Assembly (NCBI GenBank): GCA_018650465.1
Contig: JABIFY010000078.1
Location: 1-64,000, forward strand
DNA: 64,000 nucleotides
Reading direction: 5' to 3'
Source: Alphaproteobacteria bacterium
GTDB lineage: Bacteria > Pseudomonadota > Alphaproteobacteria > UBA2966
The position numbers and the translations under genes are program-made. Below, in pieces: positions 2,493 to 40,087 of the stretch. The stretch's first letter is position 1; each line of letters starts with the position of its first letter. The notes below the pieces were generated by a model that was not told where the DNA came from, did no database searches, and was given only the letters and a program-made list of their open reading frames with translations.

Positions 2493-3394
2493 CCAAATCC
2501 TCAGAAACCATCAGCGTGAGCATGATACCGGTAAATCTCATCGCAGTCAGGAACCCGCGCATCCGCAACAAAAAAGTATTTAGACAGATAGTGGAAAGCA
2601 TATCCAAAGTCGGGCTCAAGAAACCTATTACCGTCCGTCGTTCCAATCTAGAAAAGGAAGACCCAGCCTACGATCTGGTGTGCGGCCAAGGCAGGTTAGA
2701 AGCATTTTCGGCCCTTGGTGAAATGGAAATTCCCGCGATTGTCGTTGATGTCTCAATCGAAGACAGCCTGATAATGAGTCTCGTCGAGAACCTTGCACGG
2801 CGACGCCATCAACCACTTGAATTACTGCATGATATTGGCGAACTAAAGAGACGCGGATACTCAGATAAAGAAATCGCAGTGAAGACTGGGCTTTCGTATG
2901 CCTACGTTCGTTCTATTGGCCATCTACTTGATGATGGGGAAGAGCGATTATTACAGGCAGTTGAAACAGGAAACCTGCCCGTCAACGTAGCAATCGAAAT
3001 TGCTGAAGCAGATGAAGAGGGGGTTCAAGAGGCTCTGGCCCATGCCTATCAAGAAGGGCATCTTCGCGGGAAGAAGCTGTTTCTGGCAAAACGGCTGGTA
3101 GAGCAAAGACGGAGGCGCGGAAAATTGCTCCGGAGCGGACCAACCGGACCAACCGGACAACGTCGCCAACGAATTTCATCAGAGACCCTAGTTCGTGCCT
3201 ATGAAAAGGAAGTCAGTCGGCAAAAGTTAATGATCAAAAAAGCCGAAATAACCCAAAGCCGATTATTGTTCGTGGTGGAAGCCATGCGAACACTCGCCTC
3301 AGACACAAATTTTGTTACCTTACTGCGTGCGGAAAATTTATCAACCATGCCTCGCCCGCTTGCTGATTTAGTCGCAGCGAGGGAAATACAGTAG
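2489..3394 (+). CDS. ParB/RepB-like partition protein, first copy
   Basis: A 301-residue protein with an N-terminal ParB-type domain (about 10-110). Seen are the VSMIPVNLIAVRNPR entry, the CGQGRLEAF box (equivalent to the GERR-type nucleotide box of ParB) and the LVENLARRRHQPLE helix, followed by an HTH (YSDKEIAVKTGLSYAYV). The C-terminal third is basic and probably coiled or DNA-binding. In the family such proteins bind centromere-like sites and may use CTP as a switch. Here it overlaps the recombinase by 4 bp and is followed after 2 bp by a second RepB-like gene; no ParA ATPase is visible. A role in element stability or in synapsis with the recombinase is inference. Confidence 0.85.
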   Translation: MTKSSETISVSMIPVNLIAVRNPRIRNKKVFRQIVESISKVGLKKPITVRRSNLEKEDPAYDLVCGQGRLEAFSALGEMEIPAIVVDVSIEDSLIMSLVENLARRRHQPLELLHDIGELKRRGYSDKEIAVKTGLSYAYVRSIGHLLDDGEERLLQAVETGNLPVNVAIEIAEADEEGVQEALAHAYQEGHLRGKKLFLAKRLVEQRRRRGKLLRSGPTGPTGQRRQRISSETLVRAYEKEVSRQKLMIKKAEITQSRLLFVVEAMRTLASDTNFVTLLRAENLSTMPRPLADLVAAREIQ

Positions 3395-3396
3395 CT

Positions 3397-4293
3397 ATGC
3401 GCGAGCACGTTAAAATGGCGTTCAAGCGCAAAAGTATTTTTCTGAAGCTGGAAGACATCCTTCCTGTGAAGCAACTCCCGAAAAGCGTCCAAAAGACACG
3501 GAAATACCAGCAAATAACCGCTTCAATCCTGGCAATTGGAATCATCGAGCCACCCGTCATCTCACGGCCAGCAAGTGGCAAAGGCAAATTTCTTTTACTG
3601 GACGGACACCTTCGTATTCAGATTTTAAGAGACCTTGAAGTGAACGAAGTCACCTGTCTTGTTGCAACTGATGATGAGGCTTTTACGTACAACAAGCGCG
3701 TAAACAGATTAGCCACCATTCAGGAACATAAAATGATATTAAAGGCTATCAAGGATGGCGTTCCAGAAAAACGTATTGCGAAGGCCCTTGATATCAATAT
3801 TTCCAGTATTCGCCAAAAGCGTCGGCTTCTTGAAGGGATATGCCCCGAGGCAGCTGAGTTGCTCAAGGACAAGCACTGCCCAATGAACTCGTTCGAATCG
3901 CTACGCAAGATGAAACCCCTGCGGCAAATCGAAGTGGTCGAATTGATGATTGCCATGGATAACTATTCGGTCAATTACTCGAAGGCGATCCTGGCTGCTA
4001 CTCCCCAGGATCAACTTGTCGATACCGGAAAACCGAAGGCTGTGGCAGGTATTTCTGCTGAGAAAATTGCTCTTATGGAGACAGAAATGGCTGGCCTTCA
4101 ACGTGAGGTCAAGCAGATTGAGGATAGTTATGGAACAGATCACTTGAATCTGGTTCTGGCGCGTGGCTACCTGGATTCCCTTATTCGCAACGAAGAGATT
4201 ACTCGGTATCTCGAGCAAAATCACAGTGAAATCCTGGGGGAGTTTCGGAGAATCTCAGACGTAATGTCTATGGGACCGCAAGAACCAAGATGA
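3397..4293 (+). CDS. RepB-like plasmid partition protein, second copy
   Basis: A 298-residue protein of the plasmid-partition RepB type. The N-terminal part has a ParB-like fold (LEDILPVKQLP, LLLDGHLRIQILRDL), with DGHLR replacing the usual GERR/GQGR box. An HTH follows (EKRIAKALDINISSIRQKRRLL), then a long helical C-terminal region resembling the RepB C-terminal family (PF07506). An alternative ATG lies at 3415. The two ParB-family genes differ strongly, so they are likely a heteromeric pair rather than a recent duplication. They form one operon with the recombinase. Family assignment is good; the biological role in this module is not established here. Confidence 0.82.
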   Translation: MREHVKMAFKRKSIFLKLEDILPVKQLPKSVQKTRKYQQITASILAIGIIEPPVISRPASGKGKFLLLDGHLRIQILRDLEVNEVTCLVATDDEAFTYNKRVNRLATIQEHKMILKAIKDGVPEKRIAKALDINISSIRQKRRLLEGICPEAAELLKDKHCPMNSFESLRKMKPLRQIEVVELMIAMDNYSVNYSKAILAATPQDQLVDTGKPKAVAGISAEKIALMETEMAGLQREVKQIEDSYGTDHLNLVLARGYLDSLIRNEEITRYLEQNHSEILGEFRRISDVMSMGPQEPR

Positions 4294-10263: not shown

Positions 10264-11077
10264 GGGAAACCTCATTGATAATCTTTTTTCCGATCCGCCG
10301 CACCAGTTCCCGCCGGTAGCGGGCGCTGGCATGAGGGTCGTCGACACCGTCCAATTCCCACGCCAGGTCATTCAGGGTCGCCTCCACGGCCTCACCCTGC
10401 AACAATGGCAGATCAACAATCCGGGGGATTTCAGCGACACCACCAACACCAAGGCGCACACCTTGCGCTGTGCTCACTGCTGCCAGGGCGACGAGGGCAA
10501 AATCACCATGGCGCTGGCTGACTTCATGGAATAAAGACCTGCTTTGTGCATCCGCAACCGGAAATCGGCAAGCCGTAATCATTTCATCGGCGGCGACATC
10601 TGTTGTCATCATACCGGTCTGAAAGTCAGCCGCCGACAGGACACGTCGCCCCCGCTTGCCCTGAACCACCACCTCCCCCTGCAGGGTCGCCAGGGCCAGG
10701 GGCAGTTCAGCACTGGGTTCCGCGTGGGCAAGTGATCCGCAAACCGTACCGCGCTGGCGGGTTTGGTAGTGACCAACGTTGGGCAGGATTTGTGCCAGCA
10801 GGGGCTGGTGTTTTACTAGATCAGGCCAGGCGAGCAGAGCTGCCTGCGTTACAGCGGCGCCGACTTCGATCATGCCATCGACAAGCGATATGTTTTTCAG
10901 GTCCTGAATGCGGGCGATATCGATCAGCACTGAGGGGTTCGCCAGGCGCATATTGAGCATGGCTGTCAGGGACTGGCCACCGGCGAGAACGCGGGCCTCA
11001 TCGCCACTGGCCGCCAGAACCTCAAGCGCCTCATCGACGCTGTCCGGTCTGACATAATCAAAGGCTGCCGGTTTCAT
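10250..11077 (-). CDS. Molybdenum hydroxylase FAD-binding middle subunit
   Basis: A 275-residue flavoprotein of the CoxM/HcrB type. The FAD-binding motifs are AGGQSLTAMLNMRLANP (about 32-48) and TVCGSLAHAEPSAELPLAL, equivalent to the TIGG box in the family. The C-terminal domain of CO-dehydrogenase flavoproteins follows (GVRLGVGGVAEIP). It starts in an ATGA overlap with the large subunit stop and overlaps the 2Fe-2S gene at its end, so the three subunits are translationally coupled. It passes electrons from the iron-sulfur clusters to an acceptor. Confidence 0.93.
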   Translation of the reverse strand: MKPAAFDYVRPDSVDEALEVLAASGDEARVLAGGQSLTAMLNMRLANPSVLIDIARIQDLKNISLVDGMIEVGAAVTQAALLAWPDLVKHQPLLAQILPNVGHYQTRQRGTVCGSLAHAEPSAELPLALATLQGEVVVQGKRGRRVLSAADFQTGMMTTDVAADEMITACRFPVADAQSRSLFHEVSQRHGDFALVALAAVSTAQGVRLGVGGVAEIPRIVDLPLLQGEAVEATLNDLAWELDGVDDPHASARYRRELVRRIGKKIINEVSHATS

Positions 11078-14043
11078 GAGGTGATCCCGAAAAAGGCGAG
11101 GATACGGGCAAACAGACCTTGCGCTGGTGCCGTTTCAGTCTGGCCTGTCGCCTGGTTCGTTGTCTGGCTAACCAGGTGTTTGAAAAAGCTGTTAATCAGG
11201 GTCCGGGCAGCGCCATCGATCAGGCGACTGCCGACGGCCGCAACCTTGCCCGATATGCGCACGGCATAATGATAATCAACGCGGGTACCCTCCGGTGTTT
11301 CCACAAGAGTCACATGGCCTTCCCCCTGGGATATGCCAAGCGGGCCCGAGGCACCGCCGACCAGGCGCAGGGAGCGCGGCTCATCGAGGTCCAGCAGCAC
11401 AACTTCTGCCCGGAAGCGGCCTTTGACAGGACCGATGCCCAGCGTCACATCAGCCCGGTAGGCATTGTCACCCAGGTTTTGAAGTTCGTGGCAGCCCGGA
11501 ATAACCGAGGCCAGTTTTTCCTCATCCAGGATAACGGCCCAGACGTCAGCAGGCGATGCTGGCACCATTGTGCTTCCCTCACCGCGCAGCGCATGACCTT
11601 CTCCCGGCGGAGGTGCGGGTGCGACGGGCACAGATCTCGCATCCTCTGCTTCCGTCGCCATGACCAGGCCAGCAAGGCGGGAGCGGGTCAGGGGTAATGT
11701 TGTGATATCACGGTCAACGGCGTCGGCCACCGCATTGGCAATACAAACCGGGGTCGACATGCAATTGCCCTCCCCCAGTCCCTTGGAGCCCAGCGGCGTG
11801 AAGGGTGACGGAGATTGGTCATGCAGAATAACCAGGTCAGGCACTTCGACTGCGGTGGGCGGCAAATAATCAACAAAGGTACCAGACAAAAAACTGCCGT
11901 CCGCTGCATAGGCCAGCTCCTCATAGAGGGCAGCGCCCAGGGCGTTGGAAAATCCGCCCCTGATCTGGCCATCGGCTAACATGGGGTTCAGCAGGCGTCC
12001 AGCATCATGCATGGTGACATACTTATCTATGCGCACGGCGAAGGTGTCGGGATCAATTTCGACGCCACATATGTCGAAGATAAAACCGTAGCTGCCGGAA
12101 GAATTAATCCGGTCCGCCTCGTCCGGCTCTGTCAGTTCCGGCATGGTCCAGATGGCAGTTTCACGCAAGCCCACCCCCGCTTCATCCGGCACAGACAAGG
12201 GCGACCAGTGGGCCTTTGCGGCGGGGCGGGCAATGGGCAAGGCATTGTCTGGATTGCCACGGGCGTAGACCTTGCCGCCACCAAATTCAACTTCCTCCAC
12301 GGGGATATTCAGATCAGCCGCGGCAATGCGCGTCAGTCTTTCACGCAGTTTCATGGCTGCCTTGTGTGCCGCACCTGTTACGGCCCCGGCAAAACGACTG
12401 GCATAATTCCCTGAAGCAATGGACCAAGGGTCCTTGTTGGTATCGTGATCGCTGGAGACGACAATGGTCGACGGATGAACACCCAGGGCATCGGCCACAA
12501 CCTGGGACAGTACAGTGCGGTGGCCCTGCCCCTGGGGCACCGACGAGGTATTAACGGTGATCGAACCCGAAGGGTCAAAGCTAACGGTTGCGGTCGCCAG
12601 GGCACCATTTTTTGGCCCCGCCTTTTCGCGCTGTTCGGGCGTCAACAACGTCGTAATGTAGCCCATGTTGGAAATTGAGGGTTCTACTACAGCTGCATAA
12701 CCGATGCCATATAGCCGGCCTTGTGTACGGGCGGCGTCACGCCGGGCGATCAACTCCGACAGTCCGCCTTCTTCAACAGCGCGATCCAGTGACCTGGTGT
12801 AATCTCCTGAATCGAGCAGTGCCCCCGATGCTGTGGTGTAGGGCATGGCCTCCGTCGGCACCAGATTACGTCGACGCAATTCCAGAGGATCGATAGCCAG
12901 TTTCTTGGCCGCCAGATCCATCAAACGTTCAAGCGGGAAATAGATCTGCGGCCCGCCAAATCCCCGCATCAGACCAGTCGGTGTCTTGTTGGTGACAACA
13001 ACCCGGTTGCGGATGGCCAGGTCCTGAATATCATATGCACCCGTCATATTGCCATGCATGCGATAGATCGTTGCCGGTTCCGGTGCCCGCAGATATGCCC
13101 CGCAATCCTCCAGCTGATCATAATCCAGGGCCAACAGTCGGCCGTTCTCATCAAAGGCCCCCTTGAGGGTCGTTAGCCGGTTTGTGGCAGACGTCGCTGC
13201 ACTGAGATGTTCCAGCCGGTCCTCAACCCATTTGACGGGGCATCCGGCAACCCTGGCGGCAACACCCAGGGCAACCACATAAGGGAATATTCCCTGCTTG
13301 ACGCCAAAACTACCACCTGAGTCCGGCGGTGTCTTCAGGCGCAAGCGGTTGCCCGGCACCTTGAGTGAGCGGGCCATGATGGTGTGCAGGGTATAGGGTC
13401 CCTGAAAATTGGCCGTGACCTCAAACAGGTCTTCCCCGGCATTGTGACGTGCCACAACGACATAACATTCCATGGGCGTGCAGGAATTACGGGGATAGTG
13501 CACCGAGGTTTCCACCACATGGGCGGCTTTTGTGAAGGCGTCTTCTGGATTGCCATAGCGAAAGGAGCGTTCGTGCAGCACGTTGCCATCTGTGCTCGGG
13601 TGAAGTTTCGTTGCTGTATCAGCGGCTGCCTCCGCCGGGTCGACCAAGGCCTCGAGGGCTGCATACTCCACCTCGATGGCATCCAGCGCATCCTCGGCCA
13701 GATAGCGATTAGCGGCAATGACGATAGCCACCGGCTCACCTACATAGCGCACACGATCTGTCGCCAGGGCATAGTGCGGTGCTTCGACCTTGACGCCGGT
13801 AATAAATGGTTTGGAGTGCGCCAGAATATCAGCGCCGGTAATCACTGCGACGACACCTGCCATGCTGAGGGCTTGGTGAATATTGACTGAGCGGATTTTC
13901 GCATGGGCCAGGGGGCTGCGTAAAAAGGCTGCGTGACAGGTGCCTGGCGGGGTCGCCAGATCATCGGCAAACTGCCCCTGCCCTCTCAGCAGCGACAGGT
14001 CTTCAACTCGCTCGAGGGATTTGCCAAGCCACGGAGCCTCCAT
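11074..14043 (-). CDS. Molybdenum hydroxylase large subunit fused to CoxG-like domain
   Basis: A 989-residue molybdopterin-binding subunit of the xanthine-dehydrogenase family. The N-terminal half has the GQGQFADD and RVRYVGEPVAIVIA blocks; RGFGGPQ and the terminal KGLGEGN (with the likely base-catalytic Glu) mark the cofactor region. Residues from about 830 form an extra SRPBCC/CoxG-like domain (VPASPADVWAVILDEEKLA, then LGIGPVKGRFRAEV), normally a separate protein that in CO dehydrogenase loci recruits the enzyme to the membrane. The start at 14043 is set by GGGAGG seven bases upstream, giving a 16-bp gap after livF rather than an overlap. The CO-dehydrogenase AYxCSFR loop is absent, so CO is not the expected substrate; hydroxylation of an aromatic or N-heterocyclic carbon is more likely. 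Confidence 0.9.
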   Translation of the reverse strand: MEAPWLGKSLERVEDLSLLRGQGQFADDLATPPGTCHAAFLRSPLAHAKIRSVNIHQALSMAGVVAVITGADILAHSKPFITGVKVEAPHYALATDRVRYVGEPVAIVIAANRYLAEDALDAIEVEYAALEALVDPAEAAADTATKLHPSTDGNVLHERSFRYGNPEDAFTKAAHVVETSVHYPRNSCTPMECYVVVARHNAGEDLFEVTANFQGPYTLHTIMARSLKVPGNRLRLKTPPDSGGSFGVKQGIFPYVVALGVAARVAGCPVKWVEDRLEHLSAATSATNRLTTLKGAFDENGRLLALDYDQLEDCGAYLRAPEPATIYRMHGNMTGAYDIQDLAIRNRVVVTNKTPTGLMRGFGGPQIYFPLERLMDLAAKKLAIDPLELRRRNLVPTEAMPYTTASGALLDSGDYTRSLDRAVEEGGLSELIARRDAARTQGRLYGIGYAAVVEPSISNMGYITTLLTPEQREKAGPKNGALATATVSFDPSGSITVNTSSVPQGQGHRTVLSQVVADALGVHPSTIVVSSDHDTNKDPWSIASGNYASRFAGAVTGAAHKAAMKLRERLTRIAAADLNIPVEEVEFGGGKVYARGNPDNALPIARPAAKAHWSPLSVPDEAGVGLRETAIWTMPELTEPDEADRINSSGSYGFIFDICGVEIDPDTFAVRIDKYVTMHDAGRLLNPMLADGQIRGGFSNALGAALYEELAYAADGSFLSGTFVDYLPPTAVEVPDLVILHDQSPSPFTPLGSKGLGEGNCMSTPVCIANAVADAVDRDITTLPLTRSRLAGLVMATEAEDARSVPVAPAPPPGEGHALRGEGSTMVPASPADVWAVILDEEKLASVIPGCHELQNLGDNAYRADVTLGIGPVKGRFRAEVVLLDLDEPRSLRLVGGASGPLGISQGEGHVTLVETPEGTRVDYHYAVRISGKVAAVGSRLIDGAARTLINSFFKHLVSQTTNQATGQTETAPAQGLFARILAFFGITS

Positions 14044-14059
14044 TTCAGGGCCTCCCTGT

Positions 14060-14704
14060 TTAACCGGAAATGATGCTGCCACGCTCAATCACGAATGTCC
14101 GGTCAAGCAAGCTTACGATATGCTTGTCGTTTGATTCGGCCACCAGCACCGATTCGCCCTCATCCTTCAGCTTTGCCATGATCTCGCTCATGCGCTGGGC
14201 AAATACCGGGGCGATACCCTCGCTCGGCTCATCCAGTAACAATAATTTCGTGCCCACCATCAGGGCTCGGGCGAAGGCGACAAACTTTTGTTGGCCACCC
14301 GAAAGCTCCACCGCACCCCGGTTCCGAAAATCAGCGACTTCAGGCATGATTTCATAAATCCAGCTGAGACGGTCCTGCCAATCTTCCATGTCTGTGGCCC
14401 AGACCGGCAACAGAATATTTTCCTCTGACGTCAGGGCCGGAACCAGACGCCGGTCTTCGGGCATAAATCCGATGCCCATATGTGCGCGTTTGTGCGGTTG
14501 GATTTTGAGCAGGTCCTGGTGACCAAACATCGCCGTCCCCGCCTCAACTTTCAGCGCCCCCATAATGGCACGCAAAAAGGTGGTCTTGCCCGCACCATTG
14601 CGACCGATCAGACCGCACATGGTACCAGCTGGCACAGTCAGAGCCAGGTTCCGCAAGATGGGTGTTGGGCCAATATTGACGTCCAGATTACTTACCTCAA
14701 GCAT
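14060..14704 (-). CDS. livF: Branched-chain-type ABC transporter ATP-binding protein LivF
   Basis: A 214-residue ATPase with Walker A (GRNGAGKTT), Q-loop region, signature LSGGQQ and Walker B (LLLLDEPSEGIAP), as in LivF. It energises import with LivG. The ATG at 14704 is preceded by AGGGGGACC and overlaps the livG stop by 8 bp; the longer frame to 14725 has no better site. It is slightly short for LivF (usually 230-240 residues), but the C-terminal VIERGSI block is present. It sits fifth in the uptake-catabolism operon, just before the hydroxylase genes. Confidence 0.92.
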   Translation of the reverse strand: MLEVSNLDVNIGPTPILRNLALTVPAGTMCGLIGRNGAGKTTFLRAIMGALKVEAGTAMFGHQDLLKIQPHKRAHMGIGFMPEDRRLVPALTSEENILLPVWATDMEDWQDRLSWIYEIMPEVADFRNRGAVELSGGQQKFVAFARALMVGTKLLLLDEPSEGIAPVFAQRMSEIMAKLKDEGESVLVAESNDKHIVSLLDRTFVIERGSIISG

Positions 14705-29876: not shown

Positions 29877-31259
29877 ATGCAAAAGTTACAACAACACCTA
29901 CCATCTCTCAGAACTGTGTCAACTTTAAAACCGCATCCGCAGAACCCGCGCAAACACAGCAAGAAACAGGTTCACCAGATCAGCAGCAGTATCAAGACGT
30001 TCGGCTTTGTCGGTGTGATTATCGTCGATGCTGATGACTGCATCGTCGCCGGTCACGCAAGGGTCGAAGCGGCAAAAGCACTCGGCATCGAAGAATTGCC
30101 AGTTATTTGTGTTGACCATCTCCGCGATGAAGAACTCCTGGCGTATATGATCGCTGACAACAAGCTGACCGAGAACGCTGAGTGGGATTTTGTCCTGCTC
30201 GGCGAAGTTTTCGAAATGCTTGATGCCGACGACCTGAACCTGGATTTGGCGATAACCGGCTTCGACGCGCCCGAAATCGACTTCCTGCTCGATCAGCGCA
30301 TCTGTGCTCATGACGAGAATTTGCCTGACGAGATCCCGCTGGCGCTGGACCCAGGTTTGCCGGTGACCTGCCTCGGTGACCTGTGGTTACTGGGCACCCA
30401 CCGCCTCCTGTGCGCTGATGCAACTTCACCTGAGTCGTATGCAGCACTGATGAACGGGAAGAAGGCCCAATTCGCTTTTTCCGACCCACCCTACAACGTC
30501 CGCATCGATGGCCATGTCAGTGGCACGGGCCGGCGCCATCACGATGAGTTTGCGATGGCTTCAGGCGAGATGTCCGATGCCGAATTTGTCACCTTCCTTG
30601 AGACGGTGATGCGGCTAATGGCGGCCAACTCCGTCAATGGCTCGGTCCATGATATCTGCATCGATTGGCGTCATATACACGACCTGTTGACGGCAGGACG
30701 CGCTGTCTATTCGAAGTTGATGAACATAGCCGTCTGGGCCAAGCCGAACGCCGGCATGGGCAGCCTTTATCGCAGCCAGCACGAGCTTGTCGCCATCTTC
30801 AAGAACGGCCGCCGCAAGCACATTAATAATGTCGAACTGGGCAAGCACGGTCGGAACCGTTCCAACCTCTGGCAATACGCCGGGATGAACAGCTTTGGTG
30901 CAGACCGTGATGACCTTCTGAACCTGCATCCGACAGTGAAACCTCTGGCCCTGGTAAAAGACGCCATCCTGGACTGCTCCAACCGTGGCGGTATCGTCCT
31001 TGATCCCTTTGTTGGTTCGGGCACGACCGTTCTGGCGGCGGAGCAGACGGGTCGGCGCGCTCATGCAATGGAACTGGAGCCGAAATACGTCGACATCACC
31101 GTCCGCCGCTGGCAGGCCATGACGGGGCAAACGGCGGTACTTGCCGGGACCGGCCGGGCCTTTGATGAAGTTGGTACTGAACGCTCTGAAGCGCTCGCAG
31201 GCAATGCTTCGGTTGTTGGGAAACAGGAGACGCATAATGGCACGCAAAAAAGACTATGA
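29877..31259 (+). CDS. ParB-like domain fused to adenine-type DNA methyltransferase
   Basis: A 460-residue two-domain protein. Residues about 15-110 form a ParB-like nuclease/partition domain (LKPHPQNPRKHSKKQV, IVAGHARVEAAKALG). Residues about 160-425 form a DNA methyltransferase with the catalytic DPPYN (203-207) before the AdoMet motif DPFVGSGTT (376-384), i.e. beta-class order, typical of N6-adenine enzymes. No restriction endonuclease is adjacent, so it is an orphan, as in many phages and integrative elements. GAGGAGA precedes the ATG. The last 23 bp overlap the DUF5681 gene. It could protect or mark element DNA before packaging or transfer; that is inference. Confidence 0.9.
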   Translation: MQKLQQHLPSLRTVSTLKPHPQNPRKHSKKQVHQISSSIKTFGFVGVIIVDADDCIVAGHARVEAAKALGIEELPVICVDHLRDEELLAYMIADNKLTENAEWDFVLLGEVFEMLDADDLNLDLAITGFDAPEIDFLLDQRICAHDENLPDEIPLALDPGLPVTCLGDLWLLGTHRLLCADATSPESYAALMNGKKAQFAFSDPPYNVRIDGHVSGTGRRHHDEFAMASGEMSDAEFVTFLETVMRLMAANSVNGSVHDICIDWRHIHDLLTAGRAVYSKLMNIAVWAKPNAGMGSLYRSQHELVAIFKNGRRKHINNVELGKHGRNRSNLWQYAGMNSFGADRDDLLNLHPTVKPLALVKDAILDCSNRGGIVLDPFVGSGTTVLAAEQTGRRAHAMELEPKYVDITVRRWQAMTGQTAVLAGTGRAFDEVGTERSEALAGNASVVGKQETHNGTQKRL

Positions 31260-31731
31260 AATCGGCAGGAACAAACCGCCGGTGCATACCCGGTTCAAGC
31301 CCGGCCAGTCCGGCAACAAAAAGGGACGGCCCAAGGGCAGCCGCAATATTGCCACCGACCTTAATGAAGAGCTGAACGAGATGATGTCAATCACGGAAGG
31401 CGGCAAGACCAGGAAACTGTCAAAGCGAAGGATCATGATAAAGGCCACCGTTAACAAGGCGATAAAAGGCGACGTGCGGGCGGTCAACACTGTCATTGTC
31501 CTCAACGATCGTTCGCCAAACCAGCCCGGCGTTGATGATACCCCAGGCGTGATGCCAGTCGACGATGCCGCGGTTCTTGAAGCCTTCACACTTCAAAATC
31601 TGGCCGACGCCAAACAACTGGCATCGGACAAAAAGAAGTCGAAGCCCCGGTCAACAAAGGCCGGTTCAAAAAAGTCCGCAAAGCCCGACAAAGCCCGCGG
31701 CAGCAAAACCAAAAAAGGAGACCCAAAATGA
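31237..31731 (+). CDS. DUF5681 domain protein
   Basis: A 164-residue basic protein with the DUF5681 signature near its start (HTRFKPGQSGNKKGRPKGS) and a Lys/Ser-rich, probably disordered tail from about residue 130. The start at 31237 has AGGAGA six bases upstream and lies inside the methyltransferase end. Genes of this family are often placed directly before large terminases, so a small-terminase-like, DNA-binding role is plausible but unproven. It ends in an ATGA overlap with the terminase gene. Confidence 0.82.
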   Translation: MARKKDYEIGRNKPPVHTRFKPGQSGNKKGRPKGSRNIATDLNEELNEMMSITEGGKTRKLSKRRIMIKATVNKAIKGDVRAVNTVIVLNDRSPNQPGVDDTPGVMPVDDAAVLEAFTLQNLADAKQLASDKKKSKPRSTKAGSKKSAKPDKARGSKTKKGDPK

Positions 31732-33179
31732 ACATTCCACAAAGTGATATTCTGAACGCAGTCCTGCGCAGCGATTTCGAAGCTTTCCAGCATCGCTGTT
31801 TCCTGACCGCCTTTCCCGGGGTCGACTTTCTCCCCAACTGGCATATGCGGGTAATGGCCGACAAGCTGATGGACTGTTTGCGTGGTGGAACAAAGCGCCT
31901 GATCATCACCCTGCCGCCGCGCAACCTGAAATCGCAGACAGCATCAGTCGCCCTGCCGGCCTTTATCCTTGGCCATGACCCCACATCCCGGGTCGTCTGC
32001 GCGAGTTATTCCGGCGACCTGGCCGGCAAGTTCTCAAGGGACTGTCGTGCCGTGATGCAGTCAGACTGGTATCAGTCTGCGTTCGGAACACGGCTGGATC
32101 CTGGTAAAATCACCGAAGCCGAGTTTACCACAACAAAACGGGGGTATCGGCTTGCAGCATCAGTGGGTGCCATGCTGACGGGTCGGGGTGGCAATTTTAT
32201 TATCATTGATGACCCCCTGAATGCCACCGATACCATGTCGGAAGTAAAACGTCAGGCCGTCATTGACTGGTACAGCAACACGCTGCTGTCCCGTCTCGAT
32301 AACAAGGCTGAAGACGTCATCATCATTGTGGCCCAGCGACTTCATTATGACGACCTGGTTGGTCATCTGCTGCGCAGCGGCGAAGAATGGGTTCACCTTA
32401 ACCTGCCGGCCATAGCGGAAGAGCGACAATACTTCACCCTGGCAAATGGCGTGATCGTCGGACGTGAGGCTGGTGAAGCCCTGCATCCTGGTCGCGAGCC
32501 CCTGGACGTCCTGCAAAACATCAAGACCCACATGGGCAGTTATGTCTTTTCGGCCCAATACCAGCAGAACCCGCTTCCCCTGGAAGGCGGATTAATCAAA
32601 TGGTCCTGGTTCAAGACGTATCCCTCACCCCTGGAGCGTCAGCAAGGCGACTTCGTGACCCAGAGCTGGGACACAGCCTCCAAGAAAAGTGAACTTAACG
32701 ACTACAGTGTCTGCATGACGGTGCTGCGACGGGGCAGTGACCATTATCTGATCGACATCTTCCGGGAACGACTGGAATACCCGGACCTGAAGCGCGCTGT
32801 TGTCAGACTCGCGGATCACTTCAGGGCAGATGCAGTCCTGATTGAGGACAAGGGGTCCGGCACTTCCCTGATCCAGGACCTTCAGGAAGAAGGCATCGTC
32901 CGGCCTATTGGCATCTTGCCTGAAGGCGACAAGGAAAGCCGGATGTATGCCCGGACCGCAATGCTGGAAGCCGGTTATGTCTGGCTGCCGGAAGCCGCCG
33001 CCTGGCTGGACGATTTCAGAACCGAAGTGTTGCAGTTTCCGACCGGTCGTCATGATGATCAGATCGACAGCCTGTCGCAATATCTGGGCTGGGGGGGATG
33101 GCAGATGGAGAACCTGAGCGGCATGCGCTTTAGTCACGGCATTATGGGGGATCAGGGATTTGGCTGGCGCGAAGGGTAA
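31728..33179 (+). CDS. Phage terminase large subunit
   Basis: A 483-residue packaging motor. The ATPase domain has a Walker A-like LPPRNLKSQT (about 64-73), CASYSGDLAGKFSRD, and Walker B FIIIDDP. The C-terminal RNase-H-like nuclease has QSWDTASKKSELNDYS (first acidic residue), VLIEDKGSGTSLIQDL and HDDQIDSLSQ (last acidic residues). All catalytic positions expected for the TIGR01630-type C-terminal family appear present, so it is not obviously decayed. No portal, protease or capsid gene follows; instead come DUF2924 and a recombinase. Confidence 0.92.
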   Translation: MNIPQSDILNAVLRSDFEAFQHRCFLTAFPGVDFLPNWHMRVMADKLMDCLRGGTKRLIITLPPRNLKSQTASVALPAFILGHDPTSRVVCASYSGDLAGKFSRDCRAVMQSDWYQSAFGTRLDPGKITEAEFTTTKRGYRLAASVGAMLTGRGGNFIIIDDPLNATDTMSEVKRQAVIDWYSNTLLSRLDNKAEDVIIIVAQRLHYDDLVGHLLRSGEEWVHLNLPAIAEERQYFTLANGVIVGREAGEALHPGREPLDVLQNIKTHMGSYVFSAQYQQNPLPLEGGLIKWSWFKTYPSPLERQQGDFVTQSWDTASKKSELNDYSVCMTVLRRGSDHYLIDIFRERLEYPDLKRAVVRLADHFRADAVLIEDKGSGTSLIQDLQEEGIVRPIGILPEGDKESRMYARTAMLEAGYVWLPEAAAWLDDFRTEVLQFPTGRHDDQIDSLSQYLGWGGWQMENLSGMRFSHGIMGDQGFGWREG

Positions 33180-33326
33180 TGATTGAATACCTCTTATCAT
33201 TATTGGAAATTCAGGTCGAATCTGACCGAATTCAAATCTGATAATCGCCAGAAAAAGCGACCAGAAAAGACTGGCAATCCCGGCCATTTGGAGCGTGCAT
33301 GGACCACCTGAACAGGAGGGTTGTGC

Positions 33327-33800
33327 ATGCTGAACAACAAAAATGTTCGCGAATTGAACTGGAAAGAAGCGCATGCTGCCGACAATGGCCCGTGCCAGGA
33401 AATTGCTTCGATGTCCAGAAAAGATCTTGTTGAAAGCTGGACCGAATATTATGGCCGCTCGCCGCCGGCTGGCACCAGTCGCCGTCTGCTGGTTCATGCG
33501 ACTGCCTACGCCGCCCAGGCAGCCACACATGGCGAACTGGGCCACGATACCAGACGCAAGATCAGGCTGATCGCAAAACGATCCGCCAACATCCGATCCG
33601 CCGGGTCTTCCGCAAAAAAGTCGCGCCTTCCCGCCGGTACCCGCCTGGTGCGGGAGTGGCAGGGCATTGTCCATGCCGTGGATGTACTGGATACGGGTTT
33701 TCTGTACAAGGACACTATTTATGGCTCGCTCTCGGAAGTCGCCCGGGTCATCACCGGGGCCCGCTGGTCCGGGCCCCGGTTCTTCGGCACACGGCAATGA
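33327..33800 (+). CDS. DUF2924 domain protein
   Basis: A 157-residue basic protein of the DUF2924 family: MSRKDLVESWTEYYGRSPP, SRRLLVHATAYAAQA, PAGTRLVREWQGIVHAVDV, and the terminal GSLSEVARVITGARWSGP then FFG block. In alphaproteobacteria this family is commonly encoded immediately before a large serine recombinase, as here (4-bp ATGA overlap), suggesting a recombinase partner or DNA-binding accessory; function is not known. AGGAGGG six bases before ATG 33327 fixes the start. Confidence 0.88.
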   Translation: MLNNKNVRELNWKEAHAADNGPCQEIASMSRKDLVESWTEYYGRSPPAGTSRRLLVHATAYAAQAATHGELGHDTRRKIRLIAKRSANIRSAGSSAKKSRLPAGTRLVREWQGIVHAVDVLDTGFLYKDTIYGSLSEVARVITGARWSGPRFFGTRQ

Positions 33801-35446
33801 AGAAGGTCCGTTGCGCCATATACACGCGCAAATCGACCGAGGAAGGTCTTGAGCAGGAGTTCAACAGTCTGGACGCCCAGCGCGAAGCCTGTGAAGCCTA
33901 TATTGCCTCCCAGAAAGGTCTGGGCTGGATTTGCCTCAAAGACCACTATGATGACGGCGGACTGTCCGGTGGCACCATGGCCCGCCCTGCCCTGCAGAGG
34001 TTGCTGGAAGACGTTGAAGCCGGATCCGTTGATCTGGTCATCGTCTACAAGGTCGACCGTCTGACGCGGTCCCTGACAGACTTCGCCAGAATCGTCGAAA
34101 CCCTTGACGCCGCAGAAGTATCGTTTGCTTCCGTCACCCAGCAGTTCAACACCTCAACATCCATGGGGCGCATGACCCTCAATGTCCTGATGACCTTTGC
34201 CCAGTTTGAGCGGGAAGTTACGGCAGAACGCATCCGCGACAAGATCGCTGCCTCCAAAAAGAAGGGTATGTGGATGGGCGGCCTGCCACCCCTGGGATAT
34301 ATCAACCAGGACAAGCAACTGGTTGTCGTTGAGGACGAAGCCAGGGTCGTCCGGGCCTTGTTTGAACTCTATCTTGAGCATGGCACAGTCCGGACTGTCA
34401 CCCTTGAGGCGGAGCGTCTGGGGTTGCGCACCAAGGTCCGCAACATCAACGGCAAGACGACCGGGGGACAGGTTTTCAGCAGGGGGCATCTTTACCAGCT
34501 CCTGCGCAATCCGGTTTATGCCGGAAAGATTGCCCACAAAGGAAAAACCCATGCGGGACGTCATGAGGCAATCCTGGACAAGAAGTCCTGGGACGCCGTT
34601 CAGCACAAACTGGACGACAATGCGGCACCGAGGGCAACAACGACAAACAGCGCAGGCCTCAATCTGCTGACCGGATTGCTGTTTGATGAACAGGGAGACC
34701 GTCTGACGCCGATTCGGTCCGGCAAGAAAGGCAAGCGGTATCACTATTACATCTCGCAGGAACGGGCTCAGGATGCTGGGCAGTTCCACGATGGCTGGCG
34801 CTTGCCTGCCGGCATGCTTGATCGTTTGATTGTCAAAGCCCTTCAGGAATTTCTCGGCGAGGATAGCCGGCTTGTCAGCCAGCTAGGACTGGAAGCTTCG
34901 ACACCATCCCGGTTGAAGAAGGTCATTGGGTTGGCAGCCGGGCTGTCAGAGCAGATTGCATCCCCGAATCCCGTATTGCAACGCAAGGTCCTGCTGGGCT
35001 TTGTTGAGCGGATTGACCTGGGCGGTGAGGCCATCCGCATACAAATGTATGCAATACCGCTCACAGGTGAGGACAGACCCATTCACATTGAATTTCCAGT
35101 GACCCTGCGGCGGCGGGGTGTAGAGAGCAAAATTGTGCTGGCTTCAGGAAACTCGTCCGAGAACCGGGACCCGTTGCTGGTCAAGCTGGTTGCCAATGCC
35201 ACAAACTGGCTTGAGCAACTGGTCAGGGGTGAAGCCGTCTCCGTCCGTGACATTGCCCGCCTGAACCATGTTGCGGAAAACGATGTCAGCCGCTTCCTGC
35301 CGCTGGCGTTTCTCGCCCCCGACATCATCGAAAACATTGTCTCCAGCAGGCATCCACCAGAACTGACCGCAGAAAAACTCAAGCGGATCGGAAAACTTCC
35401 CCACGACTGGCAGCGTCAGCGCGAGTTACTGGGCTTTGCCGAATGA
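33797..35446 (+). CDS. Large serine recombinase, second element
   Basis: A 549-residue site-specific recombinase. The catalytic domain starts AIYTRKSTEEG with nucleophile S13, then the SLDAQRE helix, VYKVDRLTRSLTDF and the long helix FAQFEREVTAERIRDKIAASK. A recombinase domain follows (PLGYINQDKQL, LLRNPVYAGKIAHKG). The usual zinc-ribbon Cys residues are absent (LLTGLLFDEQGDRL). The ATG at 33797 is in an ATGA overlap with the DUF2924 stop. It shares only family-level similarity with the recombinase at 915. Its gene ends 180 bp from tRNA-Ile(CAU). Confidence 0.93.
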   Translation: MKKVRCAIYTRKSTEEGLEQEFNSLDAQREACEAYIASQKGLGWICLKDHYDDGGLSGGTMARPALQRLLEDVEAGSVDLVIVYKVDRLTRSLTDFARIVETLDAAEVSFASVTQQFNTSTSMGRMTLNVLMTFAQFEREVTAERIRDKIAASKKKGMWMGGLPPLGYINQDKQLVVVEDEARVVRALFELYLEHGTVRTVTLEAERLGLRTKVRNINGKTTGGQVFSRGHLYQLLRNPVYAGKIAHKGKTHAGRHEAILDKKSWDAVQHKLDDNAAPRATTTNSAGLNLLTGLLFDEQGDRLTPIRSGKKGKRYHYYISQERAQDAGQFHDGWRLPAGMLDRLIVKALQEFLGEDSRLVSQLGLEASTPSRLKKVIGLAAGLSEQIASPNPVLQRKVLLGFVERIDLGGEAIRIQMYAIPLTGEDRPIHIEFPVTLRRRGVESKIVLASGNSSENRDPLLVKLVANATNWLEQLVRGEAVSVRDIARLNHVAENDVSRFLPLAFLAPDIIENIVSSRHPPELTAEKLKRIGKLPHDWQRQRELLGFAE

Positions 35447-35914: not shown

Positions 35915-36376
35915 ATGAAATACGACGCAAATTCGACCGCCATGGCACCCTTTACCCTGGGCCTGCCCGTGCGATTTACCCATACGGACCCCGCCGGGTA
36001 CGTCTTTTTCCCCCGTTACTTCGAAATGTTGCAGGCTGTTGTCGAGGAATGGTTCACCCAGGCCCTGGATCTGAAATATGCCGACCTGGTACTGGATCTG
36101 AAGCTTGGGTTACCCACGGCGCAAACCGAGTGCAAATTCCAGGCCCCCTGCCGCCTCGGCGAGCCCCTGGAAATCTCGCTCTATCTGGAACATATCGGCA
36201 ATTCATCCATCAAAGTCCGCTTCGTTGGCCGTGTGGAAGGGGAGCAACGCCTTGAAGCCAAATCAGCCCTGGTCGTCACCAACATCACCACCGGTCGTCC
36301 CAACCCCATGAGCGCCGACTTGCGGGCAAGGTTTGAGAGATATCAGGCTGACTGCGCGGCGGCGGCTACCACTTGA
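35915..36376 (+). CDS. Acyl-CoA thioesterase, 4-hydroxybenzoyl-CoA thioesterase family
   Basis: A 153-residue hot-dog-fold enzyme. FTHTDPAGYVFFPRYFEM contains the catalytic Asp of the 4HBT type. The ATG at 35915 follows GGGGA; a later ATG (35942) is possible. It would release a free acid from an acyl- or aroyl-CoA. It converges with, and overlaps by 11 bp, the 3' end of the metzincin operon, so antisense interference is possible. Confidence 0.85.
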   Translation: MKYDANSTAMAPFTLGLPVRFTHTDPAGYVFFPRYFEMLQAVVEEWFTQALDLKYADLVLDLKLGLPTAQTECKFQAPCRLGEPLEISLYLEHIGNSSIKVRFVGRVEGEQRLEAKSALVVTNITTGRPNPMSADLRARFERYQADCAAAATT

Positions 36377-37787
36377 TCACACGTTCCTTGCCGTCGCGGG
36401 GTTTGGTTTGTTGTTGCGACTGGTTGGCGGGCTCAAGTATTATGCCGCCTACCTTGCGGCCATCATTTGAGACAGGTGATCTGCTACCCGACTTGGTGGA
36501 GGTGCTTGCTGAAGCGCCATCAGCACGCGGCCGATAAGAAGCGACTATACGTTTGTTACGCTTGATCGCTGTTACATTATCAGCCGAATTGTCCTGTCCT
36601 GCCGTAATTCCAATTGGATCGTTCTTGTATTGCATCCTGGGATTGGAGAAAAAGGGTAAATCCAGACACTTTTTCTTGAGTTTTTCCATACACTGGTGCG
36701 GATAGGCCATAACTGTATGCCACTCCTTCTCCAGATTGACATACCCATGATTGTCACCTTTTCTGGGGTCAACGTGACGATCATGCCAGGCGCCCAGATT
36801 GTGACCAAGTTCATGGGGAAAGACCATATTGGTCAATATGCAAGGCAGAACAGAAATTGAGAAACCAAGTTCCGGGAAAGCTTCGCGGTTTTCCACATCC
36901 GGGCCAATAAAACCCATCCCGCAAAGACCGCCATACTCATTGGGGGAAGTTATGAAGGCAACAAGGTCTGCACCCAATTCGTTTCGGATAGACAAAATTG
37001 CCTTTCTGCTCCTCCAGGTCGTAATGTCATGACGAGCATTACCACTTTCTTTCCAAGGCAGAGGGACGATCCCGACAGACCGGAACATCGTTCCTTTAGT
37101 CACGCCGCTTCTTCCATAGATGTTATTGGTTTCTGCAATCAATAATTTCATCTCGGATAGTGCTTTCTCCTTACCACCAAGGTCTTTGATAGCCTTGGTG
37201 GTTACGAAGAGAAGCAGATCAATTGGTTCGTCTTCGGGAGGGAGAGTTTCCTGAGAAGCCATGCGCTGTTGGTTATTTTTTTGATGAAGGTCAGATTCGT
37301 CCAGTCCTATTGTGTCCCTGGTGTTGGTCATGCTCGCGATGTTGATTTCAGCCAGGCTGTATTTGCCACTTTGATCCCCCTCCAGCCTGTAAAGCCGCCC
37401 ATCTTTCCAGATCCGGCCTCGAAGCCCGTTGTGGTCATTGATCAGGGTTGCCATGTTGCGTTTTTCCCCATCTACCATGCCACTGACAATTTGGATGCCG
37501 TCTACGTTGTTACCATCCTGGTGACGCAATTGAAGGGTAGACTGGCTACCGTCGAGCATTTGCAAGGGGACCTGGCTGACACCTGAGCGACGAGGATTGA
37601 AAATCGACGCCAGCAGATTTGTATTCATCGCGCCGGTTCCCTCTCGACTTACACTGAATGAGTTTGATGTGGCATCGACGTCGTAAACCCTGTTCAGAGG
37701 GGCAAACAGGTTTTCGGCACATACCTCCGATGCCATAAAACCCATGAAAGCCAGCAATGGTAAAAGATGGGTAGTCAGCCGGTTCAT
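36366..37787 (-). CDS. Secreted metzincin-type zinc metalloprotease
   Basis: A 473-residue exported protein. A signal peptide covers residues 1-24 (hydrophobic core LLPLLAFMGF, VCA before EN). Residues about 25-150 form an N-terminal domain with MATLINDHNGLRGRIWKDG, followed by a linker and a catalytic domain. The zinc site is HELGHNLGAWHD (325-336; H325, E326, H329, H335) with a Met-turn at M360 (HTVMAY), as in reprolysin/M12B-like metzincins. The tail is Ser/Gly/Lys-rich and ends KERVIKW. ATG 37787 follows AGGA at eight bases. It is the last gene of a three-gene operon, 11 bp after the lipoprotein gene. Proteolysis outside the cytoplasm is expected; substrate unknown. Confidence 0.88.
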   Translation of the reverse strand: MNRLTTHLLPLLAFMGFMASEVCAENLFAPLNRVYDVDATSNSFSVSREGTGAMNTNLLASIFNPRRSGVSQVPLQMLDGSQSTLQLRHQDGNNVDGIQIVSGMVDGEKRNMATLINDHNGLRGRIWKDGRLYRLEGDQSGKYSLAEINIASMTNTRDTIGLDESDLHQKNNQQRMASQETLPPEDEPIDLLLFVTTKAIKDLGGKEKALSEMKLLIAETNNIYGRSGVTKGTMFRSVGIVPLPWKESGNARHDITTWRSRKAILSIRNELGADLVAFITSPNEYGGLCGMGFIGPDVENREAFPELGFSISVLPCILTNMVFPHELGHNLGAWHDRHVDPRKGDNHGYVNLEKEWHTVMAYPHQCMEKLKKKCLDLPFFSNPRMQYKNDPIGITAGQDNSADNVTAIKRNKRIVASYRPRADGASASTSTKSGSRSPVSNDGRKVGGIILEPANQSQQQTKPRDGKERVIKW

Positions 37788-37798
37788 TTCCACATTCC

Positions 37799-38365
37799 TC
37801 AGTTTGTATTCTTGTCTTTGATGCCGTCCTGAATGGCAGGAAGAGCGATAGGGGCGACCTCTTCAATACGATGTTGGCGGCTGTCTTCAGGGCGAATACG
37901 GAAGAGTTTGCCGCCGTAGCGAACGTTGCCACTGAAGGCCCCATTGCGATGCATCAACGTCACCAGCGACGTATTATCGCCAACGACAGTGCCGCCAAAA
38001 AATTCTGGAAGTCCGGAACCACCCGGAGAGGCTTCAAGTTCCACAGTGATAACAACATCCGGAAACAGGTTTAGTTTCAGCGTATGTTTTGGCAATTCGG
38101 CACTGCTGGTATTTGGCCTGATTTCTTTACTGACCGACGACAACAATGTGATCAAACCGTTATTCTTTTGATCAAGGCTGACGAGGCGCGCGCGAACAAT
38201 TCCTTTTCCAGGCGAGGCGTTGTCCCGGTCTTCCTTCACCTTTTCAACCTGGAAAATGCCCCTGTCGGGCAGGGCTTGGGTCTCCGCCTCTTCCGGCGCA
38301 TCATCACATGCGACCAGAGCCAAAGTGGTCCACAGCACAAAGCATGTTAGTAGTTTTCGCAACAC
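37799..38365 (-). CDS. Lipoprotein resembling the metzincin N-terminal domain
   Basis: A 188-residue predicted lipoprotein. The start is GTG at 38365 with GGGAAGG seven bases upstream. The signal ends in lipobox LVAC (lipidated C20), and the mature protein begins CDD; Asp at +2 favours inner-membrane retention by the enterobacterial rule. Residues about 80-165 include TSLVTLMHRNGAFSGNVRYG then KLFRI, which resembles the ATLINDHNGLRGRIWKDGRL block of both flanking metzincins. It therefore looks like a stand-alone copy of their N-domain, possibly an inhibitor, chaperone or anchor. Gene order between the two protease genes supports a shared job. No known family name. Confidence 0.75.
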   Translation of the reverse strand: MLRKLLTCFVLWTTLALVACDDAPEEAETQALPDRGIFQVEKVKEDRDNASPGKGIVRARLVSLDQKNNGLITLLSSVSKEIRPNTSSAELPKHTLKLNLFPDVVITVELEASPGGSGLPEFFGGTVVGDNTSLVTLMHRNGAFSGNVRYGGKLFRIRPEDSRQHRIEEVAPIALPAIQDGIKDKNTN

Positions 38366-38485
38366 GGCATTACCTTCCCTGGCCAGACGACCCCTTGATG
38401 AAGATATGCAAGGACTATACGCCGTTTTTGCCGCAACGGGAAAAATCTGTTGAACGGTCAGCTCAGCGCACGACATGCCACCAGC

Positions 38486-39859
38486 CTACCATTTGATTAC
38501 CCGTTCCTTGCCCGTCTTCCCGGTCGTCGGCCCCGCACTTTCGACAATGATGCCGCCGACTTTGGTGCGCGTTGGCCCGCCGCCACCGTTGGTATCTGCA
38601 CGGGGGCGGTAGGCTGCCACAATAGCCATGTTCCGCCGCACCCAATTGACATTGTCAGCCGCAAGTTTCTGGCCAATGGCGACGCCAACGGGGTCTCCTT
38701 TGTATGCCAGTCGGGGCGTGGAGAAAACCGGCAAATTCCGACAGAATTTCTTGTATTTTTTGTAACAATCATAACCCGATGCCATAATCGTTCCCCACCT
38801 CTTTGCGAGGTTGACATAGGCATAACTGTATCCCTTTTGACGATCTGAATATCGTTCTCCCCCCGCGCCCATATTATTGCCAAGTTCATGGGCAAAGGTC
38901 AGATTGCTGTAGCCACATGTAGCGGTTGTTAAAGAATAACCCAGTTCGGGATAACCTGTCTTGTTACGTTCCTCCGGACCGCGGAACCCTGTGCTACAGT
39001 ATTTCATGTTTTCAGGCCACGTAATGAAACTGACGAGGTCTGCGCCAACTTCGTCCCTTTCAGCAATGTATGGCTTGAAAGTCATCCAATCCTTGATATT
39101 AATTACAGGGTCGTTGTGGTCATCCAAAACCGAGACACGGGTTCCAACCAAGCGAAACATTGGTCCACTTAAGATGCCACTTTGCCTGAAAATATTGTTG
39201 GCCTCAGCGACCAACAGTTTGACGCGATTGAACGCTTTGTCACGTCCACCCAGTTTTTCAACTGCTTTTTTCGAAAGATAGACCAGCAAGTCAACAGACT
39301 CACCTGGTTCGGGCGGCGGCCCTTGAGTTCCGCGTCGTTGCATTTGTTGACCAGCTATATCGCCCGCGTCAAGATATTGCCTGCGGTGTGGAATGCCGGA
39401 TTTCTGGATTTCCGACAATTGATAGCGCCCACCTTTGTCGCCCTCGATCCTGAATAGTTTCCCGTCTTTCCAGATGCGCCCGGACAGCGCACCATTATTA
39501 TTGACCAATGTCGCCAAATTGTGGCTCTGTCCGTCAACCAGACCACCCAGCACCTGGATATCATCTCTGTTGTCCATGGCCTGGCCGCGCAGATGCAACA
39601 TTGATTCTGAGCCATCCAGCATCTGTAACGGTATCTGGTGAACCCGGCTGTTGCGACCTGAGGATTGGTCGAACATATTTTGCATTGCTTCAACGTTCAG
39701 GCGACCGCTACCCATACGTTGCACGCCGGATGCATCGACCCTGCTACTCATGTTCTGAATATTTGTCAGGGGCGAAAACAGGGTTTCGGCGAAACCAACG
39801 GAGGTCATCGATAAATTGGCTGAGACAATCGCGAGACCACAGGCCATAAGACGCTTCAT
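38486..39859 (-). CDS. Metzincin paralogue with degenerate zinc site (pseudoprotease)
   Basis: A 457-residue exported protein collinear with the protease at 36366: signal peptide 1-24 (SVGFA before ET), N-domain with LATLVNNNGALSGRIWKDGK, catalytic-domain fold and the same KERVIKW end. The zinc motif reads HELGNNMGAGGE (324-335): H324 and E325 remain, but the second and third histidines are N328 and G334. The Met-turn is kept as TIMAS. The frame is otherwise intact, arguing for a maintained non-catalytic role (binding, inhibition, scaffold) rather than decay. ATG 39859 follows AAGGA. It is the first gene of the operon. Confidence 0.85.
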   Translation of the reverse strand: MKRLMACGLAIVSANLSMTSVGFAETLFSPLTNIQNMSSRVDASGVQRMGSGRLNVEAMQNMFDQSSGRNSRVHQIPLQMLDGSESMLHLRGQAMDNRDDIQVLGGLVDGQSHNLATLVNNNGALSGRIWKDGKLFRIEGDKGGRYQLSEIQKSGIPHRRQYLDAGDIAGQQMQRRGTQGPPPEPGESVDLLVYLSKKAVEKLGGRDKAFNRVKLLVAEANNIFRQSGILSGPMFRLVGTRVSVLDDHNDPVINIKDWMTFKPYIAERDEVGADLVSFITWPENMKYCSTGFRGPEERNKTGYPELGYSLTTATCGYSNLTFAHELGNNMGAGGERYSDRQKGYSYAYVNLAKRWGTIMASGYDCYKKYKKFCRNLPVFSTPRLAYKGDPVGVAIGQKLAADNVNWVRRNMAIVAAYRPRADTNGGGGPTRTKVGGIIVESAGPTTGKTGKERVIKW

Positions 39860-40051
39860 TTCAAATATCCTTGATACGATAATTTGCGACCACCTGAAAA
39901 CGGTGCTCCGGCCCGCGCTTATCTGGACCAAAACGCCGATTCTACCTGAATGACATACCATAGAAACATACTCACTTAATCAGTTTACACTCTCTGATTA
40001 CAAATATGCAGGGTCTATGCTCTTTTTTTGCCGTTGGATAAAAAAAATCGC

Positions 40052-40087
40052 AAAAAAAAGGCCGACGCAAATGCGCCGACCTTTTTC
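40052..40087 (-). terminator. rpoD terminator
   Basis: On the minus strand a 10-bp GC-rich stem (GGTCGGCGCA with TGCGTCGGCC, two G-U pairs) and a short loop are followed by eight Ts at 40059-40052. It sits 22 bp past the rpoD stop and isolates rpoD from the downstream metzincin operon, whose own promoter must lie within 39860-40051. Confidence 0.88.

Follow-up and report, generated by a model that had tools for sequence, protein, structure and literature searches.

Layout of the locus

The window (the whole stretch of DNA that was analysed, 64,000 nucleotides) belongs to a marine alphaproteobacterium, and on its minus strand three genes for exported proteins, encoding in transcriptional order a dead metzincin, a lipoprotein and an active metzincin, were found with open frames at the coordinates listed in Table 1, in agreement with an earlier sequence-only reading. 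The dead metzincin gene and the lipoprotein gene are separated by 120 bp, the lipoprotein gene lies 11 bp upstream of the active protease gene on the same strand, and co-transcription of the three is predicted. The trio is flanked by rpoD and a thioesterase gene. A GC-rich hairpin with a T-run after rpoD, read by eye, is probably the rpoD terminator and would separate rpoD from the trio; it was absent from the sites listed by the promoter/terminator scan, the output of which was at chance level.

Table 1. Features of the three-gene locus, with positions counted in the window
Feature	Position	Strand	Size or residues	Description
Dead metzincin paralogue	38486..39859	-	457 aa	Sec signal peptide, prodomain-like N-domain (~residues 24-160), linker, M12B-type domain with HELGNNMGAGGE and four conserved Cys; C-terminal tail GKERVIKW; Reprolysin_3 23.1 bits (cut-off 22.4)
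Degenerate zinc site, dead copy	38855..38890	-		HELGNNMGAGGE; orthologue in MAG SI054_bin61 has RGLGKNLGAGYE
Lipoprotein	37799..38365	-	188 aa	GTG start; lipobox LVAC, then DD; folded region: free-standing metzincin prodomain / CpaB-like domain (homology and fold match)
Active metzincin	36366..37787	-	473 aa	Sec signal peptide, prodomain-like N-domain, linker, M12B-type domain with HELGHNLGAWHD and Met-turn VMAY; C-terminal tail GKERVIKW; Reprolysin_3 36.2 bits (cut-off 22.4)
Intact zinc site, active copy	36780..36815	-	residues 325-336	HELGHNLGAWHD
GC-rich hairpin and T-run after rpoD	40050..40085	-		aaggtcggcgcatttgcgtcggcctttttttt; probable rpoD terminator

The GC content of the trio (49-53%) is similar to that of the rpoD side. 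Phage cargo was considered as an origin and rejected on this GC content and on the rpoD/thioesterase context, present in both species that carry the trio, as against prophage-like genes at about 56% GC. The latter belong to a prophage or mobile-element remnant near the trio (29877-35446 of the window), comprising a ParB-domain DNA methylase, a terminase RNaseH-like protein and a large serine recombinase. At 915-4293 the gene of a further large serine recombinase precedes two RepB/ParB-like genes in tandem, another mobile-element signature, and at 11074-14088 a single open frame encodes a molybdopterin large subunit (xanthine/CO dehydrogenase type) together with a CoxG domain, possibly an uncommon fusion.

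The metzincin pair and the lipoprotein

An end-to-end alignment of the dead and active proteins gave 42% identity (E 1e-132) and took in the prodomain-like N-domain, so that the collinearity claimed for the two long proteins was recovered over their whole length, and both score above the cut-off of Pfam PF13582 (Table 1). The active copy carries the M12B zinc motif HExxHxxGxxH/D and a Met-turn. In the dead copy, where the loss of two His ligands had already been pointed out, N and G stand in place of His ligands 2 and 3 and E in place of the family Asp, and the Met of the Met-turn is retained. The first gene departs from the zinc motif in both species; the copy in the MAG is more degraded, having also lost the Met of the Met-turn.

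The closest named NCBIfam family of both metzincin domains was Mep72 (NF052434); however, membership was rejected, as the scores of 82.3 and 74.5 bits are far under the 645-bit cut-off and the two C-terminal carbohydrate-binding modules are lacking. Membership of CpaA (NF033511) was likewise rejected, the active copy scoring 38.5 bits against a cut-off of 750, and the secretion system also speaks against either identity: type II secretin was absent from both genomes, each of which holds one secretin adjoining, by inspection, CpaD/CpaE-like Tad pilus genes. Given this absence, the periplasm or vesicles may be the place where the trio acts. Both metzincins end about 50 residues past the protease domain, with no further domain in Pfam, and a delivery or target-recognition domain was not found in the trio. 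A sequence search of solved structures returned weak matches to ADAM17 and snake-venom proteins. The two genomes together contain just four instances of the C-terminal tail motif KER[VK]IKW, one in each of the four dead or active metzincin genes; a general sorting signal was rejected, the tail being on no other protein in either genome.

The description of the lipoprotein as N-domain-like was borne out by its homology to the N-domain of the dead copy (E 2e-9), and the sister-species lipoprotein matched the N-domain of another alphaproteobacterial reprolysin-like protease (G191) with E 1.8e-13. An AlphaFold model of the lipoprotein, calculated from a six-sequence alignment, reached a pLDDT of about 90 in its core, and the ADAM17 prodomain and the CpaA-CpaB complex held the top ranks in Foldseek. 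Using VIA-align, a Z-score of 10.1 was obtained to 6o38_H of the CpaA-CpaB complex over 111 aligned residues, with 8.8-9.5 for the ADAM17 prodomain, 5.2 for fragilysin-II and at most 5.1 for unrelated folds. Chain 6o38_H was taken to be CpaB, from its length. Under the E. coli +2 rule, Asp-Asp after the lipobox LVAC directs inner-membrane retention, and the lipoprotein is predicted to be tethered to, and retained at, the inner membrane. A comparable arrangement was seen in an unrelated gammaproteobacterial-type genome (G707, L089:4569-5123), in which the gene immediately upstream of that for a 1293-aa metzincin encodes a free prodomain-like protein (E 1.2e-9); the metzincin has an N-domain of its own, about 30% identical to the free protein. 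At several Mep72-type loci the protease is without a fused prodomain and the neighbouring protein has an N-terminal hydrophobic segment; the hhalign comparison of BamI-like proteins with the prodomain (P 5e-4, probability 30%) is suggestive of homology between BamI and the prodomain.

Conservation and divergence in the genus

The same trio in the same order (rpoD, dead metzincin, lipoprotein, active metzincin, convergent thioesterase) was found in a MAG of the same genus, SI054_bin61 (JABILA01), where we read SI as Saanich Inlet. The trio is thus syntenic in both genomes of the genus examined, the two from which it is known, and it was not found elsewhere among 116 relatives, 385 genomes of the class and 15 of the order, which yielded distant reprolysin-like proteases only. 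An ancestral trio in the family was rejected, as no trio match was seen after rpoD in the family and order members examined, among which the contig of G003 ends soon after rpoD. With the trio, among the genomes covered, in this genus only and no match after rpoD in the relatives examined, it is therefore an innovation or acquisition of the genus. Between the two species the dead pair is 63% identical, the active pair 52% and the lipoproteins 39%, compared with about 94-95% for the flanking genes (rpoD 95%, thioesterase compared by eye), a divergence that fits fast adaptive change or exchange by recombination.

A sequencing or assembly artefact was rejected as the source of the dead site because an independent MAG of the same genus carries the trio with an independently mutated dead site. 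The dead copies of the two species form one clade (support 100/99), and loss of the zinc site is therefore older than the split of the two species. For the dead pair, NG86 gave dN 0.27 and dS 1.53, with an approximate dN/dS of about 0.2, dS (about 1.2-1.5) being partly saturated. The two pieces of the MAG gene, whose joining across contigs is inferred, were analysed separately. At such strong synonymous divergence an unconstrained frame would be expected to have gathered stops. Among positions conserved in the active pair, retention in both dead copies was seen at none of the six that form the catalytic or zinc core and at 71 of the remaining 119 (Fisher p 0.0055); four Cys are kept in all four metzincins, dead and active, of the two species, and the prodomain is the best conserved part of the dead protein between species (72%). 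In every one of about 45 related metzincin domains from other genomes, HExxH and the third-ligand site are kept. The claim of a selected pseudoprotease was upheld to this extent: the dead copy is under purifying selection, a maintained protein rather than one in fresh decay, and in being full-length with zinc and catalytic residues lost it corresponds to an M12-family pseudopeptidase, albeit with one orthologue interrupted by an insertion sequence. The proposed roles of regulator, decoy and scaffold were indistinguishable on sequence, and the structure model of the dead copy had a mean pLDDT of 44.8 from a shallow alignment.

The dead gene is intact in the window and split in the MAG, where its 5' part ends contig C134 and its 3' part begins contig C109. 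Each of the two contig breaks coincides with an end of an insertion sequence, the inverted ends being common to both and GTGAAT duplicated, and the end of this element was found at about 30 places in the MAG genome. Near-identical copies (about 30) break many contigs of the MAG, including L007:1-131, a sign of recent expansion of the element there. The MAG frame is otherwise open on both sides of the insertion, which therefore looks recent. As the gene carries the insertion, it is not strictly needed in that population: there the dead gene is dispensable or is now being lost.

Proposed function and relation to known systems

The earlier remark that no system of this composition had been described held for the trio as a whole; for a protease with an anchored prodomain-like partner it did not. 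Given the matches of the lipoprotein model to CpaB and to the ADAM17 prodomain, the protease-lipoprotein pair is a relative in kind of CpaA/CpaB and Mep72/BamI. CpaA/CpaB of Acinetobacter consists of a metzincin glycoprotease and a membrane-anchored type II secretion chaperone (PDB 6o38; PMC4713064, PMC7542363), the tail of which blocks the CpaA active site in a zymogen-like manner (PMC7542363). As there, an exported metzincin gene adjoins the gene for a membrane-anchored periplasmic partner (anchoring is predicted here), and the best solved match of the lipoprotein model is a chain of the CpaA-CpaB complex, giving a partner of CpaB fold. However, sequence identity is about 10%, the lipoprotein has its lipobox in place of the N-terminal transmembrane helix of CpaB, the protease has its own fused prodomain, type II secretin is lacking and CpaA/CpaB includes no dead paralogue. 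Mep72/BamI of Pseudomonas aeruginosa offers the nearest named metzincin family and an adjacent partner gene, but Mep72 has no fused prodomain, bears carbohydrate-binding modules, exits by the type II system and is without a dead paralogue; BamI binds Mep72 and relieves its toxicity (PMC4334185). The M12 ADAM-family pseudopeptidases (PMC11266112) share the M12B fold and substituted zinc ligands kept by selection, but are animal, multidomain proteins, whereas the dead copy is bacterial and lies beside an active paralogue. Bacterial M16B active/inactive pairs and the mitochondrial processing peptidase (PMC11266112) resemble the trio in that active and inactive metallopeptidase homologues are encoded in an operon, although their fold is unrelated and a heterodimer of the dead and active metzincins would be conjectural. 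In Mtz/Tim of Listeria (PMC8235301) a secreted metzincin also adjoins a lipoprotein of inhibitor-like fold; this system differs in its TIMP-like fold, Gram-positive host, phage-derived switch and lack of a dead paralogue. The protease with a prodomain-like anchored partner is thus known already, and the new element is the retained dead paralogue.

The reading that we favour, at a probability of roughly 0.5, is that of a three-gene unit for one exported zinc protease, made up of the live enzyme, a prodomain lipoprotein acting in trans and a regulatory dead twin. The last gene would supply the working protease, an M12B-type metzincin kept in zymogen form by the prodomain at its own N-terminus, and the middle gene a second copy of the prodomain fold, made as a separate, lipid-tethered protein. 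The lipoprotein would meet the protease leaving the Sec channel, assist its folding and plug the active site in trans, in the manner of CpaB with CpaA and, as has been proposed, of BamI with Mep72. The product of the first gene would be a full-length but catalytically dead twin. With the prodomain, the four disulphide-type Cys and the C-terminal tail common to both metzincins all retained, this twin is most likely to be a folded partner, one binding the same things as the live enzyme, be it the lipoprotein, the live enzyme itself or the substrate. By competing for or bridging the same partners it could set the amount of free live protease. Having long been kept as a working protein, the dead twin probably has a regulating, guiding or shielding role towards the live enzyme. 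A point against this reading is that the active protease has a prodomain fused to it, which leaves no obvious need for another in trans. Only tentatively would we extend this reading to a dead paralogue that is a required regulatory or substrate-binding partner and that, together with the membrane-tethered prodomain, brings one protease under three-layer control.

Several other explanations were weighed against the favoured regulatory unit. An obligate heteromer with substrate binding supplied by the dead subunit, as in M16B alpha/beta peptidases, is unlikely: the active protease has relatives that are not accompanied by a dead copy, and no metzincin dependent on a dead subunit is known to us. 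It is nevertheless in keeping with the adjacent genes, equal length and shared tail, with a dead copy more conserved than the active one, and with the precedent of bacterial two-gene M16B operons (PMC11266112). The divergence of the trio relative to its flanking genes, together with the toxicity of Mep72 to E. coli when BamI is lacking (PMC4334185), would suit a fast-evolving secreted weapon against competitors or grazers, the lipoprotein and dead twin protecting the producer, for example by capturing the enzyme. This we regard as decidedly unlikely, given that the dead copy is the slowest-evolving member of the trio, that the same divergence is explicable by recombination exchange, and that the trio has neither a recognised delivery or target-recognition domain nor a type II secretin in its genomes; a competitive or grazer-directed role is possible but unsupported.

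Were the dead gene a functionless, decaying duplicate, its open frame would be a relic and the insertion in the MAG the next step of decay. The interruption by a multicopy element and the further loss of active-site residues in the MAG, Met-turn included, agree with this. However, the frame remains open in the window (G000) and otherwise in both MAG pieces despite the high dS, the low dN/dS and the higher identity of the dead pair than of the active pair point the other way, and the losses are concentrated at catalytic positions while structural Cys and tail are kept, all of which makes simple decay improbable. The least probable account is that the first gene is unlinked from the protease and encodes a binding or folding protein for an unrelated ligand, its position reflecting an origin by duplication only; conservation of the prodomain above the rest of the dead protein would fit, but the rare tail common to both metzincins and the prodomain-like lipoprotein gene interspersed between them suggest one functional unit.

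Metzincin pseudoproteases are well known in animals (ADAMs), whereas in the open-access literature searched none was found described in bacteria, nor was a selected dead metzincin beside its live twin. If true, control of one protease by a fused prodomain, a prodomain in trans and a dead paralogue has not been described in bacteria. The comparisons further suggest that CpaB, BamI and the M12B prodomain represent a single module that is either fused or free, a view that would bring several protease chaperones and inhibitors together. With a selected dead metzincin and its live twin encoded side by side, the locus offers a small, three-gene system for direct tests of what a pseudoprotease is used for.
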